In this document: positions 437 to 7,791 of the stretch, piece by piece | Numbering within the stretch: position 1 is the first letter of the stretch | How the letters are laid out: every line of letters starts with the position of its first letter | The notes under the pieces: generated by a model | Told to the model about the DNA's origin: nothing | Databases searched by the model: none | The model's input: only the letters and a program-made list of their open reading frames with translations | Assembly: GCA_023250585.1 (NCBI GenBank) | Contig: JAHFAK010000108.1 | Span: 1 to 7,901, forward strand | From: Deltaproteobacteria bacterium | GTDB lineage: Bacteria; Bdellovibrionota_F; JAHFAK01 | DNA length: 7,901 nt | Direction: 5' to 3' | Made by a program: the position numbers and the translations under genes

Positions 437-3400
437 ATGTCTCAGTTGTTAAAAACTTATCTTGCTCATAAACTGACCCAGAAGAAACCAATTTCCGATC
501 CCGAAAAATTGAACAATTCTATCCGCTCGGCAAACATTGACCTCAATCCTCATCAAGTCGACGCAGCAATTTTTGCATTCAAAAGCCCTCTTTCAAGAGG
601 TGCCATTCTTGCTGATGAGGTTGGCCTAGGAAAAACAATCGAGGCCGGCTTAATCATCGACCAATTATTTACAGAAGGACGACAAAACATTTTAGTTTTG
701 GTTCCAGCGTCTATCCGAACTCAATGGCAGGATGAATTGCTTAATCGTTTTCACTTGCCAAGCACTATTCTCGATGGATCCATCTTGAAAAAGATGCAAA
801 AGGAACTCTTGCAGGCAAATCCCTTGCAGAAAGGTGGTATTTTTATCGCGTCCCACAATTTTGCTTATCGCTATGATTACATTTGTAAAAATATTCCTTG
901 GAATCTTGTTGTGATTGATGAGGCGCATAGACTCCGGAATGTCTGGAAGAAAGGTAATAAGACGGCGAAAAAAATACGGGAGGTAATTAAAGGGCGCCCT
1001 AAAGTGTTGCTTACAGCCACCCCGCTACAAAACAATCTAATGGAGTTATATGGATTAACGAGTTTTCTTGATGAGAATTATCTTGGTACAGAATTCTCGT
1101 TTAAAACACTTTTTTCAAATCCCGTGAAGAAACGAAGCGAAACCGAGAGACTCAAGCAGTTACGGGAAAGATTGATGGGGTCCATTGATCAAAATACCGG
1201 AACGACAAATGGAGGAATATTAACTCGGGCATTACGCAAGCAAGTCCAAAGCGCAGGCCTTGTTTCTTTTACGAATCGACATAGTATTACCGAAGACTTT
1301 GCACCCAATGATGATGAAATAGAACTATACAACTCTGTAAGCGAGTATCTGCACCGTCCTTTTCTTGCTTCTACAAAAGCGACGCAAAGAAACATGATGG
1401 AACTTGTATACCGGAAGATCTTGGCAAGTTCCAGTTTTGCTATCGCTGGGACGCTTCATAAAGTCGCTCATTTTTTAGCGAGGCGATTACAGGTTGAATT
1501 TGATGTTTCTTGTGAAGAAATAAATCAGATTACTGAAAACTTACGAGCCAATCTTGTACGAGAAAATCAGAAAAATCTTGAGGGAATAATATTTCCGGAA
1601 AACAAAAAAAAATTCACCAGAGAGGATCAACTCACGTTCCCCGGCCTTGAAGATATTGAGACAACTCTGGAAAAGCTAGAAGAGGAAAAACAAGATACAG
1701 ATGATCTTGGTGAGGACGAAAAAATTAGCGATAAAAATAAGAAGCCCATAGAACGTGAAGTTGATCATGGCTTCACTAAAACTGAAGTATTGCAAGAGTT
1801 CCAAGATATCCTGCGGTACTATTTTTTGGCAACGACAATTGATAAAAACCAAAAAAGCCAAGCTCTGGTTCGTGCACTTAATAAAGTTTTCAATCATGCG
1901 GAAAAACAAAAGTGGCCACAGAAAGCTGTAATTTTTACTGAGTCAAGACGGACGCAGGACCATCTTGAAAGACTGCTTGGGGATATTGGCTACAATTTGG
2001 TTCTTTTCAACGGTAGCAATGCCAGTAAGCGAGCACAGGAAATATTTGAAGAATGGAAAATACAATTTCCGCAAGAAGCCGACCATGGTTCCAAAAACAT
2101 CAATTTGCGTAAAGCGCTCGTATGGAAATTTAGAACTCTTGATAAAGGAGTACTGATAACGACCGAAGCAGGCGCGGAGGGATTGAATCTACAATTTTCA
2201 AATATTGTTATCAATTACGATTTACCTTGGAATCCTCAAAGGATTGAGCAACGTATCGGCCGATGCCATCGATATGGCCAGGTGCTCGATGTTCTGGTTG
2301 TCAATTTTCTCAATAAGCGGAATTACGCAGATCAGCGGGTTTACGAACTTTTGTCCGAGAAAATCAGATTGTTCGGAAACCTTTTTGATTTTAGCGACAA
2401 AGTGCTAGGAACCGAACAACTCACTGACGATGGTTATGAGGTCAGGGAAATAGCTCTTGGCGGACTTGGTACAGGCCTGAATTTCGAGAAAAAGATTCTC
2501 AATATCTATCGAAAATGCCGTACGGAAAAGCAAATAGAAAACAGTTTCCAACAGTTGCAATTGGAACTTTCGTTTATTATTCAAGAAAAGATTGAAGACG
2601 CACAACGGAAGGTCATTCAACACTTTGACGAGGAAGTCAGGCAGAAGTTGCGCGTGAGACAAAAAAAGCTTACTGATGCACTTGGACGATTTGATTCACA
2701 GCTTAAGCGGTATTTAGCCCTATCACTTAATGATGCTATTCGGTATCATACGGAGAATATTTTTGAATACGAAGGGACAATGTATTACCTTGGCCAATTG
2801 AAAGAGGAGGATAAAGACAAAGGATACAAATCGGCACATATAAAAGAACAATTTATAAAAGAGCGACTCGAAGGGGATAAAAAAATACGTGGCCAAAAGT
2901 GGGAAGTCACTTTTCGGCATGACGAACAAAAGGGTCGTCGTTCTTTCGAAGATCTTATTGGTAAAGAATGCCAGCTTGTTGTTGACTTGCTCAAATGCAA
3001 ACAGCATACTATAAATGGCGTACGTGAAGAATTTGAGAGAATTACTGTTGCTGGCCTTATGAAAGATGGTGATCATTGGCAACCGATTAAGAACCTCAAC
3101 CTGGATAGACTGTTTGATCTTGCTATTGTGAATGAAGGAGCATCGGAAGACCATCTTCGTGATGAACTTGAAGATGTTGCTGTTAAGCTATTAGAAAAAA
3201 CGAAGGAAGAAATTAATGTGGGCAATGAATCTTACATCTATGAGGAAATGGATCAGTTGAATCAGTTTATTGAGGAGTCTTTGCTAAAAGGTAAACAGGA
3301 AATGGAGATAAGAGAAAGAGAAATTAAAGACCTTCAGAAAACTATGAGGGCAAGCAGGACTCTTGGTAGTTATGAACGCGATCAGATTCAGGAGCAGATA

Positions 3401-3565
3401 GACAAGAAGCAGAAAGAATTCTTCCGAGCGCAAAAGCGTTACTTTCAAGCCCAAGAGGAACAATTTATTGATAAGGATAAAAAGATAACAGAATTGCGCG
3501 GTAAATTGCAAATGAACTTTGAGCATGAACGTATCGCCTCGGCGAAATTTACTATAATTGCATGA
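437..3565 (+). CDS. SNF2/RapA-type superfamily 2 helicase, defence-associated type
   Basis: A 1042-residue ATP-driven DNA translocase or helicase. Lobe 1 shows a Q-like motif LNPHQ (36-40), Walker A DEVGLGKT (60-67), motif Ia LVLVPASIRTQW (86-97), DEAH (161-164) and motif III TATPLQN (193-199). Lobe 2 shows KAVIFTESRRTQ (496-507), motif V TTEAGAEGLNLQF (575-587) and motif VI QRIGRCHRYGQ (605-615). DEVGLGKTIEAG and the IGRCHRYGQ form are typical of bacterial RapA-like SNF2 proteins found beside methylases. An acidic, charged insert (about 399-437) separates the lobes, and a long helical, probably coiled-coil tail (about 935-1035) ends the chain. Every catalytic motif is intact. The ATG at 437 is chosen because the frame upstream encodes palindromic intergenic sequence; no clear Shine-Dalgarno precedes it. 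The stop overlaps the next start (ATGA), so the two proteins probably act together. Alternative identity: DISARM DrmD-like. Confidence 0.9.
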   Translation: MSQLLKTYLAHKLTQKKPISDPEKLNNSIRSANIDLNPHQVDAAIFAFKSPLSRGAILADEVGLGKTIEAGLIIDQLFTEGRQNILVLVPASIRTQWQDELLNRFHLPSTILDGSILKKMQKELLQANPLQKGGIFIASHNFAYRYDYICKNIPWNLVVIDEAHRLRNVWKKGNKTAKKIREVIKGRPKVLLTATPLQNNLMELYGLTSFLDENYLGTEFSFKTLFSNPVKKRSETERLKQLRERLMGSIDQNTGTTNGGILTRALRKQVQSAGLVSFTNRHSITEDFAPNDDEIELYNSVSEYLHRPFLASTKATQRNMMELVYRKILASSSFAIAGTLHKVAHFLARRLQVEFDVSCEEINQITENLRANLVRENQKNLEGIIFPENKKKFTREDQLTFPGLEDIETTLEKLEEEKQDTDDLGEDEKISDKNKKPIEREVDHGFTKTEVLQEFQDILRYYFLATTIDKNQKSQALVRALNKVFNHAEKQKWPQKAVIFTESRRTQDHLERLLGDIGYNLVLFNGSNASKRAQEIFEEWKIQFPQEADHGSKNINLRKALVWKFRTLDKGVLITTEAGAEGLNLQFSNIVINYDLPWNPQRIEQRIGRCHRYGQVLDVLVVNFLNKRNYADQRVYELLSEKIRLFGNLFDFSDKVLGTEQLTDDGYEVREIALGGLGTGLNFEKKILNIYRKCRTEKQIENSFQQLQLELSFIIQEKIEDAQRKVIQHFDEEVRQKLRVRQKKLTDALGRFDSQLKRYLALSLNDAIRYHTENIFEYEGTMYYLGQLKEEDKDKGYKSAHIKEQFIKERLEGDKKIRGQKWEVTFRHDEQKGRRSFEDLIGKECQLVVDLLKCKQHTINGVREEFERITVAGLMKDGDHWQPIKNLNLDRLFDLAIVNEGASEDHLRDELEDVAVKLLEKTKEEINVGNESYIYEEMDQLNQFIEESLLKGKQEMEIREREIKDLQKTMRASRTLGSYERDQIQEQIDKKQKEFFRAQKRYFQAQEEQFIDKDKKITELRGKLQMNFEHERIASAKFTIIA

Positions 3566-6500
3566 CAAAAGCTAATCCTATTATTGAATTACTCAAGCAG
3601 AAAGTTGTAAAACTTAAGGATATTGCAACCGAGAGGTCGTATTACCCCCTTTTGTGTTCTTTTGTTGAAGAATATGCAAAAAAGACTCAGAAATTGCAGA
3701 ATCCATCTGCTACACCTGAAGAAACCTCTAAGCAGTATGAAAAGCACGTTGGGTTTCCAGATATTACTGTTCGAAACAGTAATACTCTCATCGGCTGGAT
3801 AGAAGTTAAAAGCCCGAAAGAAAATCTAACCTCAGAAAAGTTCTGTGAGCAATTCACAAAATACAAAGATTCGCTTGAGAATATCATTTTTACAAATCTG
3901 CGTGAATGGCAGTTATGGCAATGGGGGAAGGAAGAGAGAGAAAATAATGTCGATGCAAAGAAAACGGCGGAGTTAATTTTTGATCTTACCAGTATTGATG
4001 GCGCTAGTAGCAATGGGTTCGAGAATTTTTTAACGAAGTTTTTTGAGGGGCGCGCTTATCAAACGCGTACTCCAAAACAACTTGCGCTTGCCCTTGCCAA
4101 AAAGACTCGATTTTTATCCAAGCAGGTAGAAGAAGCGCTGGAAACGCATAATGAAGACTCTGATCTAAAAAAATTAAAGGAAACGTTTGAAAAAACGCTG
4201 ATTCAAGATATTTCTGAACACCAGTTTGCAAACATGGTTGCTGAGACTATGGCGTATTCGCTTTTCCTTGCGGCTCTCGAGCATTCCCGCCACGATAAAG
4301 ATTCTGAGCTTACTCTTACAAATGCGATTGATTACCTTCCGATCAATATCCCTATCTTAGCTGATCTGTACTCACTCGTTAAGAAAGTTGCCGGTATTAT
4401 ACCGAATATTTACGAAGCAACGCGGCTTTTGGTTGATCAGTTGAATGCTTCCGAAATTGAACGTATCCATCAGAAATTGGTGGAACACAAACCCGGAGAA
4501 GACCCTGTAATTCAATTCTATGAACCATTCCTTAAGGAATACGATCCGAAGGAACGGGAAGCGCGTGGGGTTTATTACACACCCAAACCGGTTGTTGATT
4601 ACATTGTAAAGAGCGTTGATTGGATTCTTCATAATAAATTTGACAAGAAGAAAGGCCTTGCCGATGAATCAGTCCACCTTTTAGATCCTGCCACGGGCAC
4701 TGGAACTTTTCTTATGTCAGCAATTCAGGAAATTTATGGAAATATAAAGAAGGAAAATAAAACGCTTGGCGAAGAAATGGTGAAGCGCGAATTCAACGCA
4801 GTGGTGCTTAAGCATATTCTTAAACATTTTTATGGTTTTGAGCTTCTTATTGCACCGTACGCCATTGCGCATTTAAAGCTCACGCTCGAAGTCGAGAGGT
4901 TAGGTTTTGATTTTGCCCTTACAAAAGCCGATGGCGATAAAAATAATGACCGATTTAAAGTATATTTAGCAAATACTTTGGATGATCCAGAAAAGCCGCC
5001 ATTCAGTCTTTTTGGTTTTGATTCTATTCCTCAAGAGTCCGAAAGTGCACGTAAGGTTAAGAAAGATGCCCCTATTTTGGCAATAATTGGGAATCCACCG
5101 TATTCAAATTTCGGTCGAATGAATCGTGGCAAATGGATTCTGGGGCTGCTTAACGATTATAAGAAAAACTTAAATGAAAGGAAAATAAACCTAGATGACG
5201 ACTTTATTAAATTCATTCGTTTTGCACAATGGAAGTTAGAAAAGACAGGTCAGGGTATATTTGCAATGATCACCAGCAATACTTTCATTGATGGTATTAC
5301 TCATCGGCAAATGCGTCGTTCATTGATGAATACGTTTGATGAGATTTATATTTACGACTTGCACGGTAACCAACGTAAGGGTGAAGTTGCGCCGGATGGC
5401 AGTGAAGATCAGAATGTTTTTGATATTCAAACAGGTGTTTGCATCAATTTTTTTATTAAGTATCAAAGAAAGAAAGAAGTGATTGTAAAGTATGGAGAAC
5501 TTTGGGGGTTGCGCGATTTAAAATTTAGGACTCTCTTAGATGAGAGTATTGAAAAAACAGAATGGATTGAGCATATACCAAGAGAACCTAATTGGTTTTT
5601 TGTTCAACAACATGACTTGTCTATTGAAGATGAATTTAAGGCATATTTAAACATGGCAGAAGCCATGAAAAATTCTAGTAGTGGAATAATTACCAGAAAT
5701 GATGATATTGCAATCCAATTTGAAGAAAATAGCATAAAAAAAATTGTCGATGATTTTATAAAATTAAATATTCTCACCTTACGCGCTAAATATAAAATTA
5801 GCGATACCACAAATTGGAAGGTTGCATCAGCAAAAAATGATGTAGTTTCTAACCAAAATATAAATGAGATTGCTCAAATTTTATATAGACCATTCGATGT
5901 TCGGTTCACTCTTCTAACAAGAAAATCTTCTGGTTTTTTGAGTCGTCCACTTTATGATACGATGAAAAATTTTAAGCAACCAAACATTGGACTTCTTTGT
6001 AAAAGACAATCAAAAAGAAACTTCTCATATATTTTTGTAACTAATATGGTTTGTGAAAGTTGTGTTTTTGAGAGCGCCTACGCTAATAACTCCGTTATGC
6101 CGCTATATTTATATGAAAATACTGATCAACTAACTTTTACTGAAACTGATTATAAAAAATCAAATTTAAGTTCAAAATTAATTAATTCGTTTGCGGATCA
6201 TCTAAAACTAGAATTCATAGAGAATGGGCAGGGTGATTTAAGTAGAACATTTGGTCCAGAGGATGTTTTTTATTATGCCTATGCGGTTTTTCACTCACCC
6301 TCATATCGTACTCGCTACGCTAAACAACTCAAAATTGATTTTCCACGCTTGCCACTTACAGCCGATAAGGAACTCTTTAGGAAACTTGTACAGCTCGGCA
6401 ATGAGCTAGTAAATTTACATCTTCTTGGTGAGAATCCGTTTAATAATTCCAAAACAGTCTTTAGTGATCTGCAAAAATGGGATGTTAAAATCGGTGGCAC

Positions 6501-6795
6501 GAAACCAGAAAATCTTGAAGATTGGAAAGTGACTGATGTTCGTTATGATGAAAAAGCAAAGCGCGTGTACGTGAACAATGGACAATATTTTGGGGGTGTA
6601 GAGAAAGAAGTTTGGGATTTTGTGATTGGTGGTTATCAGGTCTGCGAAAAATGGCTGAAGGACCGTAAAAAAGCAGAGCGTTCACTTTCGACCTATGACT
6701 TGAAACATTACATGAAAATCGTTGTCGCCCTTCGCGAATCAATTCGTCTTATGAAAGAAATCGACAAAGTTATTCCAGAATGGCCACTAAAATGA
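3562..6795 (+). CDS. Type ISP-like restriction-modification protein: PD-(D/E)XK nuclease, N6-adenine methylase and specificity domain, no translocase
   Basis: A 1077-residue protein that probably methylates adenine at a specific site and cuts unmodified DNA. The N-terminus has a PD-(D/E)XK nuclease: PD at 66-67, EVK at 81-83 and QxxxY at 97-101. A helical spacer runs to about 330. The methylase has GVYYTP (336-341, motif X region), AdoMet motif I DPATGTGTF (375-383), FYGFEL (423-428) and catalytic NPPY (511-514). The C-terminal half carries type ISP hallmarks: YRPFDVRF (775-782) and a DVFYYAYAVFHSPSYR segment from 901, leading to DFPRLPL. Known type ISP enzymes (LlaGI, LlaBIII) are about 1,600 residues and contain an SF2 translocase between nuclease and methylase; it is absent here, and an SNF2 protein is encoded just upstream with a 4-base overlap. 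No good Shine-Dalgarno is seen, which fits translational coupling. The specificity region is AT-rich. It could also work alone, like type IIG enzymes. Confidence 0.9.
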   Translation: MTKANPIIELLKQKVVKLKDIATERSYYPLLCSFVEEYAKKTQKLQNPSATPEETSKQYEKHVGFPDITVRNSNTLIGWIEVKSPKENLTSEKFCEQFTKYKDSLENIIFTNLREWQLWQWGKEERENNVDAKKTAELIFDLTSIDGASSNGFENFLTKFFEGRAYQTRTPKQLALALAKKTRFLSKQVEEALETHNEDSDLKKLKETFEKTLIQDISEHQFANMVAETMAYSLFLAALEHSRHDKDSELTLTNAIDYLPINIPILADLYSLVKKVAGIIPNIYEATRLLVDQLNASEIERIHQKLVEHKPGEDPVIQFYEPFLKEYDPKEREARGVYYTPKPVVDYIVKSVDWILHNKFDKKKGLADESVHLLDPATGTGTFLMSAIQEIYGNIKKENKTLGEEMVKREFNAVVLKHILKHFYGFELLIAPYAIAHLKLTLEVERLGFDFALTKADGDKNNDRFKVYLANTLDDPEKPPFSLFGFDSIPQESESARKVKKDAPILAIIGNPPYSNFGRMNRGKWILGLLNDYKKNLNERKINLDDDFIKFIRFAQWKLEKTGQGIFAMITSNTFIDGITHRQMRRSLMNTFDEIYIYDLHGNQRKGEVAPDGSEDQNVFDIQTGVCINFFIKYQRKKEVIVKYGELWGLRDLKFRTLLDESIEKTEWIEHIPREPNWFFVQQHDLSIEDEFKAYLNMAEAMKNSSSGIITRNDDIAIQFEENSIKKIVDDFIKLNILTLRAKYKISDTTNWKVASAKNDVVSNQNINEIAQILYRPFDVRFTLLTRKSSGFLSRPLYDTMKNFKQPNIGLLCKRQSKRNFSYIFVTNMVCESCVFESAYANNSVMPLYLYENTDQLTFTETDYKKSNLSSKLINSFADHLKLEFIENGQGDLSRTFGPEDVFYYAYAVFHSPSYRTRYAKQLKIDFPRLPLTADKELFRKLVQLGNELVNLHLLGENPFNNSKTVFSDLQKWDVKIGGTKPENLEDWKVTDVRYDEKAKRVYVNNGQYFGGVEKEVWDFVIGGYQVCEKWLKDRKKAERSLSTYDLKHYMKIVVALRESIRLMKEIDKVIPEWPLK

Positions 6796-6860: not shown

Positions 6861-6907
6861 GGGGACGGTTCTATTTTTCAGCGGGCGCAGAAATTAGAAC
6901 CGTCCCC
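6861..6907 (+). repeat. REP-like hairpin, copy 1; possible terminator
   Basis: GGGGACGGTTCTA (6861-6873) pairs perfectly over 13 bases with TAGAACCGTCCCC (6895-6907). An inner TTTC/GAAA stem (6876-6879 with 6890-6893) extends the fold. The sequence TATTTT follows, so it may also terminate the helicase-methylase transcript. A direct copy lies at 7734-7780. The GGGACGGTTCT core resembles, from memory, repeats linked to REP-associated (Y1/IS200-like) transposases. No transposase is encoded in the window, so mobilisation would have to come from elsewhere. Confidence 0.8.
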
Positions 6908-6923
6908 TATTTTAACGCTTATC

Positions 6924-6933: not shown

Positions 6934-7722
6934 ATGAATAGGGTAAACATCAGAGAACTTTTTAAAAATGTATCCTCGAAGTTAATGCAAGAATTTTCAG
7001 AAACCGAGCGATCTCTCGCCTTTCCTCCTGACCGCGGAGGTCAGAGGGAGGAAGCAATAAGAAGGTTCCTCACGGAAAAACTACCCAAAAGATATGGAGT
7101 GAGCAAAGGATTTGTCGTAAGTAGCGAGGGCATTCAAAGTGATCAATGTGATGTAATTATTTATGATGCCGATAGCACACCCATTTTTTATGCAGATATT
7201 AATCAAGAAGTATTCCCCATAGAAACCGTCTATTGTGTAATACAAGTTAAATCCCGTCTTACCCCCACAACCCTTGATGAAGCAATAAAAAATATCAAGT
7301 CTTTCAAAGAAGTGCCAAGGGAGGATCTTACCTCTCTTCCTCTTGGGCCTGGGAAGACAAGCATGTCCCTTGGCTATGGGAGGCCTCTTAACACCAAATT
7401 AGGTATTTTATTAGCTTATGACTTCGGCGATTCCTATGCTACAAAACCAATCGGTGAAGTAGCCGATGAAATCATCTCAAAAATTGAGACTGAGGAAAGA
7501 AGAACAAGGATTGACTTTGCCTGCGTTGTGAGTAGAGGTATGTTTCTCCCAATGTTTATGGAGGGTGGGACAGCAACGGTTGCCTTATTTGATGATACAG
7601 TGGGATTAAAATGTGTCCCTGAGGCAGAAAAAAGCGTGGGCTTGTTTTTCGTGGTTTTGCTTACGACGTTGAACCAATTAAGATTGGCCAATCCGGATTT
7701 ATTTCGCTATTTTAATCAGTAA
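6934..7722 (+). CDS. DUF6602-like protein, possible PD-(D/E)XK nuclease
   Basis: A 262-residue soluble protein with no signal peptide or membrane segment. The N-terminal half follows the DUF6602 pattern as remembered: a GGQREEAIRRFL helix (35-46), a conserved LPKRYGVSKGFV stretch (50-61), then SDQCDVIIYD (69-78) and IETVYCVIQVKSRL (96-109). Read as a PD-(D/E)XK fold, the likely active-site residues are E39, D73 and Q104-V-K106, with E97 also conserved-looking. The Q in place of the second acidic residue (QxK) occurs in some members of this nuclease superfamily. The C-terminal half (about 145-262) is mixed and unrecognised. The gene stands between two direct copies of a hairpin, 138 bases after the methylase, which suggests a separate unit rather than a third operon gene. 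Nuclease activity is inferred and the biological role is unknown. Confidence 0.8.
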   Translation: MNRVNIRELFKNVSSKLMQEFSETERSLAFPPDRGGQREEAIRRFLTEKLPKRYGVSKGFVVSSEGIQSDQCDVIIYDADSTPIFYADINQEVFPIETVYCVIQVKSRLTPTTLDEAIKNIKSFKEVPREDLTSLPLGPGKTSMSLGYGRPLNTKLGILLAYDFGDSYATKPIGEVADEIISKIETEERRTRIDFACVVSRGMFLPMFMEGGTATVALFDDTVGLKCVPEAEKSVGLFFVVLLTTLNQLRLANPDLFRYFNQ

Positions 7723-7733
7723 GGATTAAAACA

Positions 7734-7780
7734 GGGAACGCTTCTATTTTTCGGCGGTCGCAGAAATTAGAACCGTCCCT
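7734..7780 (+). repeat. REP-like hairpin, copy 2 (left arm degraded); possible terminator
   Basis: A direct repeat of 6861-6907, starting 11 bases after the DUF6602-like stop. The right arm and adjoining loop (7759-7779) are identical to 6886-6906 over 21 bases, and the loop differs at two positions. The left arm AGGGAACGCTTCTA carries one extra A and one G-to-C change relative to a perfect partner of the right arm, so the stem is imperfect. GATTTTT follows, so it may terminate the DUF6602-like transcript. Confidence 0.8.
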
Positions 7781-7791
7781 GATTTTTGAGC

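Follow-up and report, generated by a model that had tools for sequence, protein, structure and literature searches.

We propose, at a probability of about 60%, that two overlapping genes on a bacterial contig constitute a restriction-modification system with a dedicated SNF2 motor encoded in trans. The motors of the ATP-driven restriction enzymes known so far are SF2 proteins of the HsdR/Res type, in most cases located within the nuclease chain. The locus described here suggests that, in this defence system, the motor may have become a subunit of its own. The component families of the pair are all known already; the open-access literature yielded no account of a type ISP or type IIG enzyme that has an SNF2 protein as its partner.

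Organization of the locus

The window, that is the whole stretch of DNA analyzed, is an entire contig (G000:C31, 7901 bp) from a metagenome-assembled genome of 2.24 Mb that is 96.7% complete and whose phylum is represented by two genomes in the genome set used for comparison. The tetranucleotide profile of this contig scores 0.748 against its own genome (other contigs, 0.634–0.828), and the Nealsonbacteria genome is about equally close. The + strand codes for three genes, namely an SNF2 gene (437–3565), a nuclease-methylase gene (3562–6795) and a gene for a DUF6602 protein (6934–7722). The first two open reading frames, of 1042 and 1077 codons, respectively, contain the following features:

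437..3565, + strand: gene 1 (P0001), DrmD/RapA-like SNF2 ATPase of 1042 aa, the proposed separate dsDNA motor (profile, motif and PDB matches)
614..637, + strand: Walker A motif DEVGLGKT, residues 60–67 (invariant in six SNF2 relatives)
917..928, + strand: Walker B motif DEAH, residues 161–164 (SNF2 alignment)
2249..2272, + strand: helicase motif VI QRIGRCHR, residues 605–612 (SNF2 alignment)
3562..3565, + strand: ATGA overlap, with the gene 2 start within the gene 1 stop (sequence)
3562..6795, + strand: gene 2 (P0002), nuclease, helical coupler, N6-adenine methylase and TRD in 1077 aa (profiles, alignment and model)
3562..3996, + strand: PD-(D/E)XK nuclease domain, residues ~1–145, with E24, D67 and E81-V-K83 (alignment and model; weak VRR_NUC match)
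4000..4566, + strand: all-helical coupler, residues ~147–335 (secondary structure of the model; LlaBIII and LlaGI matches start at residue ~165)
4567..5481, + strand: N6-adenine methylase domain (Pfam, alignment and model)
4684..4710 and 5092..5103, + strand: DPATGTGTF and NPPY motifs inside the gene 2 methylase domain
5482..6792, + strand: Type_ISP_C TRD (Pfam match at residues 701–1065; variable part, residues 641–900)

Gene 1 encodes a DrmD/RapA-like SNF2 ATPase

The product of gene 1 matches the Pfam families SNF2-rel_dom (3.2e-35) and Helicase_C (3e-21), and its motor motifs are complete: DEVGLGKT (starting at residue 60), DEAH (161), TATP (193), EAGAEGLN (577) and QRIGRCHR (605). These results, together with the reading frames, bear out a preliminary description of this DNA which had placed an intact SNF2/RapA-like motor gene directly upstream of the nuclease-methylase gene with an ATGA overlap. 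The closest sequence matches in the PDB are to E. coli RapA. An AlphaFold2 model of the protein (pLDDT 46) is too poor for structural reading. Searches of phages and IMG/VR for relatives in viral contigs returned one distant match of 28% identity.

Among defence models, the top match is DISARM DrmD_b with 512.6 bits, well above other DrmD models, DpdE, BrxHI/II and RapA. The preliminary description had also considered a DISARM-like SNF2 and methylase core extended by a nuclease. Such a reduced DISARM- or ARMADA-like system, with its other genes lost or located elsewhere, would account for the DrmD (or BrxHII)-like character of the motor, and a RapA-like helicase with a PglX-like methylase is indeed common to DISARM class I and ARMADA (PMC12458937). 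However, the score falls short of the NCBI DrmD cut-off of 950 bits, as do those of the paired relatives (517 and 531 bits), and gene 2 matches type IIG models instead of the DrmMI model. MZB/DUF1998 (PF09369, DrmB) was absent from the three genomes searched (G000, G203 and G002), while control genomes gave matches, and no DISARM genes, DrmA and DrmC included, were present in the flanks of the paired loci of G203 and G745. On the missed cut-off and the lack of MZB/DUF1998, we rejected membership in DISARM, and we consider a reduced form of such a system very unlikely. SNF2 genes found beside type III Mod and Res genes score 630–713 bits on the same DrmD_b model, which indicates a broad DrmD-like group of which the DISARM DrmD proteins are only one part.

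Gene 2 combines type IIL and type ISP hallmarks

The product of gene 2 matches Type_ISP_C (PF18135; 5.2e-84, residues 701–1065), N6_Mtase (6.9e-10) and, weakly at its N terminus, VRR_NUC, and its top defence model is REase_MTase_IIG (693 bits). In a 17-row alignment, E24, D67, E81, DPATGTGTF and NPPY are invariant or almost so, and K83 is found in every nuclease-bearing row. With the complete motor motifs of gene 1, this agrees with the earlier claim of intact catalytic motifs on both proteins. Pfam detects no helicase domain, and a structure model based on 15 sequences from the window and the other loci (pLDDT 75, pTM 0.58) gives the order nuclease, coupler, methylase and TRD with no motor segment. 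Profiles, alignment and model thus agree with the earlier assignment of nuclease, methylase and specificity domains lacking a helicase.

The type IIL enzyme DrdV (7lo5) aligns along residues 4–1075 of the model, whereas LlaBIII (Z 35.6) and LlaGI align only from residue 163/169 to 1077. Type ISP enzymes resemble type IIL enzymes apart from an inserted helicase (PMC4872093). Taken together, the whole-length match to DrdV, the partial matches to LlaBIII and LlaGI and this resemblance point to an enzyme of type IIL shape whose TRD is of the ISP type. The layout is equally a type IIL/IIG hallmark and a type ISP hallmark: nuclease, N6-adenine methylase and TRD occur in one chain, as in type IIL/IIG enzymes, and the TRD is the Type_ISP_C domain of type ISP enzymes. 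Strict type ISP membership was rejected because the SF2 motor expected in the same polypeptide is absent. Judged by its sequence, the protein is a member of the type IIG/IIL-like family of Borrelia BBE02/BBQ67; BBQ67 from Borreliella is 33.6% identical across 95% of P0002. Methylation and cleavage by gene 2 would be the activities expected of this family.

The kinship to Borrelia enzymes raises the main rival to our proposal, in which gene 2 encodes a self-sufficient type IIG/IIL enzyme and the SNF2 protein, dispensable for cleavage, has an accessory role in which it removes proteins from DNA or remodels DNA to assist the enzyme, or else acts on the products. Besides the full-length fold match to DrdV, this reading is favoured by experiments in which enzymes purified from B. 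afzelii and B. garinii, presumed relatives of P0002, cut unmethylated plasmid in a magnesium buffer without ATP, with methylation conferring protection (PMC11546952). With its 24 h of incubation at high protein, that assay is a weak one. Since Borrelia relatives were reported to digest DNA alone, a motor may be dispensable for gene 2.

The two genes are linked within one clade

The SNF2 and methylase genes occur in the same order in all four genomes of the clade (G000, G002, G203 and G745), which belong to two phyla. In G203 (locus L033), the SNF2 protein is 63% and the methylase 56% identical to those of the window, with a 1-nt gap between the genes; in G745 (L060), the identities are 62% and 58% and the gap is 0 nt. 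The Nealsonbacteria contig (L003) starts with the tail of an SNF2 gene (76–77% identity over 88 residues), followed after 6 nt by a methylase of 82% identity; G002 is therefore counted on the last 88 SNF2 residues only, cut by the contig end, and on a broken methylase. This methylase copy (L003 278–2155) contains an in-frame TAA and stops after residue 580 in unrelated sequence, reflecting either a pseudogene or an assembly fault. It was also the only match when the genome contigs were scanned with P0002. No full-length relatives of P0002 were found in phages or in viral contigs (IMG/VR).

Homologues of P0002 at 1e-60 or better were present in 23 genomes, 19 of which have only distant homologues, at 45% identity or less. 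Searched in full at 1e-20, these 19 genomes contain no relative of P0001, and no SNF2 gene adjoins the distant homologues in the flanks read. The contrast of 4/4 with 0/19 corresponds to a Fisher p of 1.1e-4, a value that is uncorrected for kinship and overstates the evidence, as the loci are related. The wider P0002 family is therefore mostly motor-free (19/23 genomes), which favours the self-sufficient enzyme, while the strict linkage and near-zero spacing throughout the clade speak against it. The preliminary description had named the scarcity of SNF2 neighbours among methylase homologues as an outcome that would contradict a split system; such scarcity is found at the level of the family and not within the clade, where linkage is complete. 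Likewise, its proposal of a split type ISP system holds for the separate, adjacent SNF2 gene, present in 4/4 clade genomes, but it does not follow that gene 2 is a type ISP enzyme which has lost its motor, given the full-length match to DrdV.

Defence genes are known to cluster, and the two proteins might act independently as chance neighbours in a defence island. The other neighbours do vary between loci, as this explanation predicts (AAA/RecF-like, PHP-ATPase and NucC-like genes). Yet the pair, its order and its near-zero spacing stay constant in 4/4 genomes of two phyla while these neighbours change, and we regard chance as the least probable of the explanations considered. The gene following the pair encodes a PHP-ATPase in G745 (Ppl-like, L060 4396–6981, overlapping the methylase gene), a RecF/SMC-like AAA ATPase in G203 (L033 64–2133) and the NucC-like protein in the window. 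Barring mis-binning of the window contig, occurrence of the pair in at least two phyla makes horizontal transfer likely.

The third gene of the window (P0003, 6934–7722, + strand) encodes a DUF6602 protein related to NucC (PADLOC NucC, 1.5e-33 and 1e-23; NucC structures, 1.4e-14), the nuclease that cyclic trinucleotides activate in CBASS and type III CRISPR systems. Its EVK motif reads QVK, replacing the catalytic E by Q, and no cyclase is encoded within the window. Two 53-nt palindromic elements that are 89% identical (GGGACGGTTCTA...TAGAACCGTCCC) flank this gene at window positions 6861–6913 and 7734–7786 and were found on no other contig of the G000 genome. Their position and their absence from the rest of the genome suggest that the segment with the NucC-like gene may be mobile or recently acquired.

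Co-inheritance of the pair and exchange of the specificity domain

The trees were rooted at the midpoint and contain a long BBQ67 branch. The paired methylases group in a single clade (100/100) with methylases of cyanobacterial plasmids as sister (98/98), and the SNF2 proteins paired with ISP-type methylases form a clade separate from six SNF2 proteins paired with type III systems (100/100). The presence of clades on both trees indicates that the SNF2 and methylase lineages moved together.

Between the L033 and L060 methylases, the nuclease, the coupler and the first half of the methylase domain are 89–95% identical and the C-terminal part 80%, compared to 64% for the second half of the methylase domain and 31% for TRD residues 641–900. 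The corresponding SNF2 proteins are 82% identical along their full length. Synonymous sites are saturated in the dN/dS comparison. A divergent TRD amid an otherwise conserved protein is the usual mark of a working restriction system that switches its target. Because the TRD is swapped while motor, nuclease and coupler are conserved, any contacts of the motor with gene 2 would lie outside the variable TRD. Clade-specific residues lie mostly in the coupler at residues 231–310 (34% of positions), a hint that this stretch might serve as an interface. In the window, GC content drops to 0.30 at 5751–6250, in the variable part of the TRD, from ~0.40 on either side, which is consistent with a specificity segment acquired through recombination.

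Related pairings with separate SNF2 proteins

The sister clade comprises six cyanobacterial plasmid loci (L011, L054, L055, L056, L064 and L065). Like the pair in the window, they join an ISP-type methylase to a separate, adjacent SNF2-type helicase. In contrast to gene 2, alignment shows that these methylases lack the PD-(D/E)XK residues, and the helicase carries a PLD-like motif instead. In five of the six loci, the PLD-like/SNF2 helicase gene lies behind the methylase gene, either directly or with one to three small genes in between; the sixth carries a helicase fragment that is set apart from the methylase by insertion sequences. The helicase is 1404–1417 aa long (split by a frameshift in L011 and truncated by the record end in L056) and consists of an SNF2 domain preceded by an N-terminal HxK...GSxN PLD-like motif. 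Pfam returns no PLD domain match for this protein; the motif, together with PADLOC HKD+Snf2 and PLD_Helicase matches, points to a putative nuclease on the helicase. A small HTH gene often precedes these loci. The nuclease-less methylase and its PLD-like/SNF2 helicase apparently constitute a distinct split restriction system.

The nearest SNF2 relatives outside the clade, 33–39% identical and members of the DrmD-like group, are encoded by genes that type III Mod and Res genes follow (L006–L010 and L061). Their partner differs from gene 2, being a type III Mod methylase plus a Res helicase-nuclease. An HTH gene often lies ahead of these operons, which sit on plasmids, including conjugative enterobacterial ones (for example, pEC316_2), and also occur in G212, a genome that shares its class with G203 and G745.

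These two pairings bear on the main rival in opposite directions. An SNF2 group that also joins type III Mod/Res systems, which have their own motor, fits an accessory role, while a separate SNF2-type helicase in the sister clade as well suggests more than an optional helper. All considered, we judge the accessory remodeller of a self-sufficient type IIL enzyme to be rather unlikely.

A further possibility, tentative and in our view doubtful, is that the paired clade and its cyanobacterial sister form one group of ISP-type methylases with an SNF2 motor in trans, one branch having its nuclease joined to the methylase and the other having it joined to the motor. Such a group would represent an SNF2-driven, multi-subunit class of restriction system distinct from types I, ISP and III.

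Proposed mechanism

Under our preferred reading, the gene 2 TRD would read a DNA site at which an adenine is methylated on host DNA, and the gene 2 nuclease would cut unmodified foreign DNA. Gene 1 would act with gene 2 as a dedicated SNF2-type dsDNA translocase, an activity expected from its family. At an unmethylated site, the motor might engage the nuclease and coupler side of gene 2, and ATP-driven movement along DNA, or remodelling of bound complexes, would bring nuclease domains together for cleavage. We infer that the two proteins form a complex in which the motor drives or controls cleavage. The motor would thereby parallel the built-in motor of type ISP enzymes, which acts in cis and whose ATP-dependent translocation triggers cleavage on head-to-head sites, and the H subunit of CglI, which acts in trans. 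The strict linkage, the separate helicase of the sister clade and the CglI precedent favour this role in trans; cutting by Borrelia relatives without ATP and the majority of standalone homologues are the counterpoint to a motor requirement.

The families described here form a natural series, made up of an enzyme without a motor, an enzyme of this kind whose SNF2 motor is a separate protein, and a sister form with a PLD-like nuclease on the motor. If the motor is necessary, the route of a type II enzyme to ATP dependence becomes directly testable, as does the role that SNF2 proteins (DrmD, BrxHII, DpdE and ArmA) play for a methylase. To our knowledge, the defence role of these four proteins is mostly unexplained.

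Comparison with known systems

DrdV, MmeI and BBE02/BBQ67 share with gene 2 the succession of nuclease, helical region, N6-adenine methylase and TRD in one chain. Unlike the present locus, where an SNF2 gene overlaps upstream, they have been described without a motor partner. LlaGI and LlaBIII share the coupler, the methylase and the Type_ISP_C TRD, but their SF2 motor lies in the chain between nuclease and coupler (PMC4872093), whereas the motor proposed here is encoded separately, as an SNF2/DrmD-like protein.

DISARM class I (DrmD-DrmMI) and ARMADA (ArmA-ArmB) also place a RapA/SNF2-like helicase next to an adenine methylase (PMC12458937). They differ in their YprA-type helicases, further genes and PglX-like methylases; P0002 scores only 13 bits against PglX. 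CglI (R2H2) resembles the proposed system in that its restriction activity is ATP-dependent and its helicase-like and nuclease subunits are separate proteins (PMC5737866). Its domain make-up is different from that of P0001 and P0002: R.CglI combines PLD and B3 domains and H.CglI DEAD and Z1 domains, and Pfam finds neither PLD/B3 nor Z1 in either protein of the pair.
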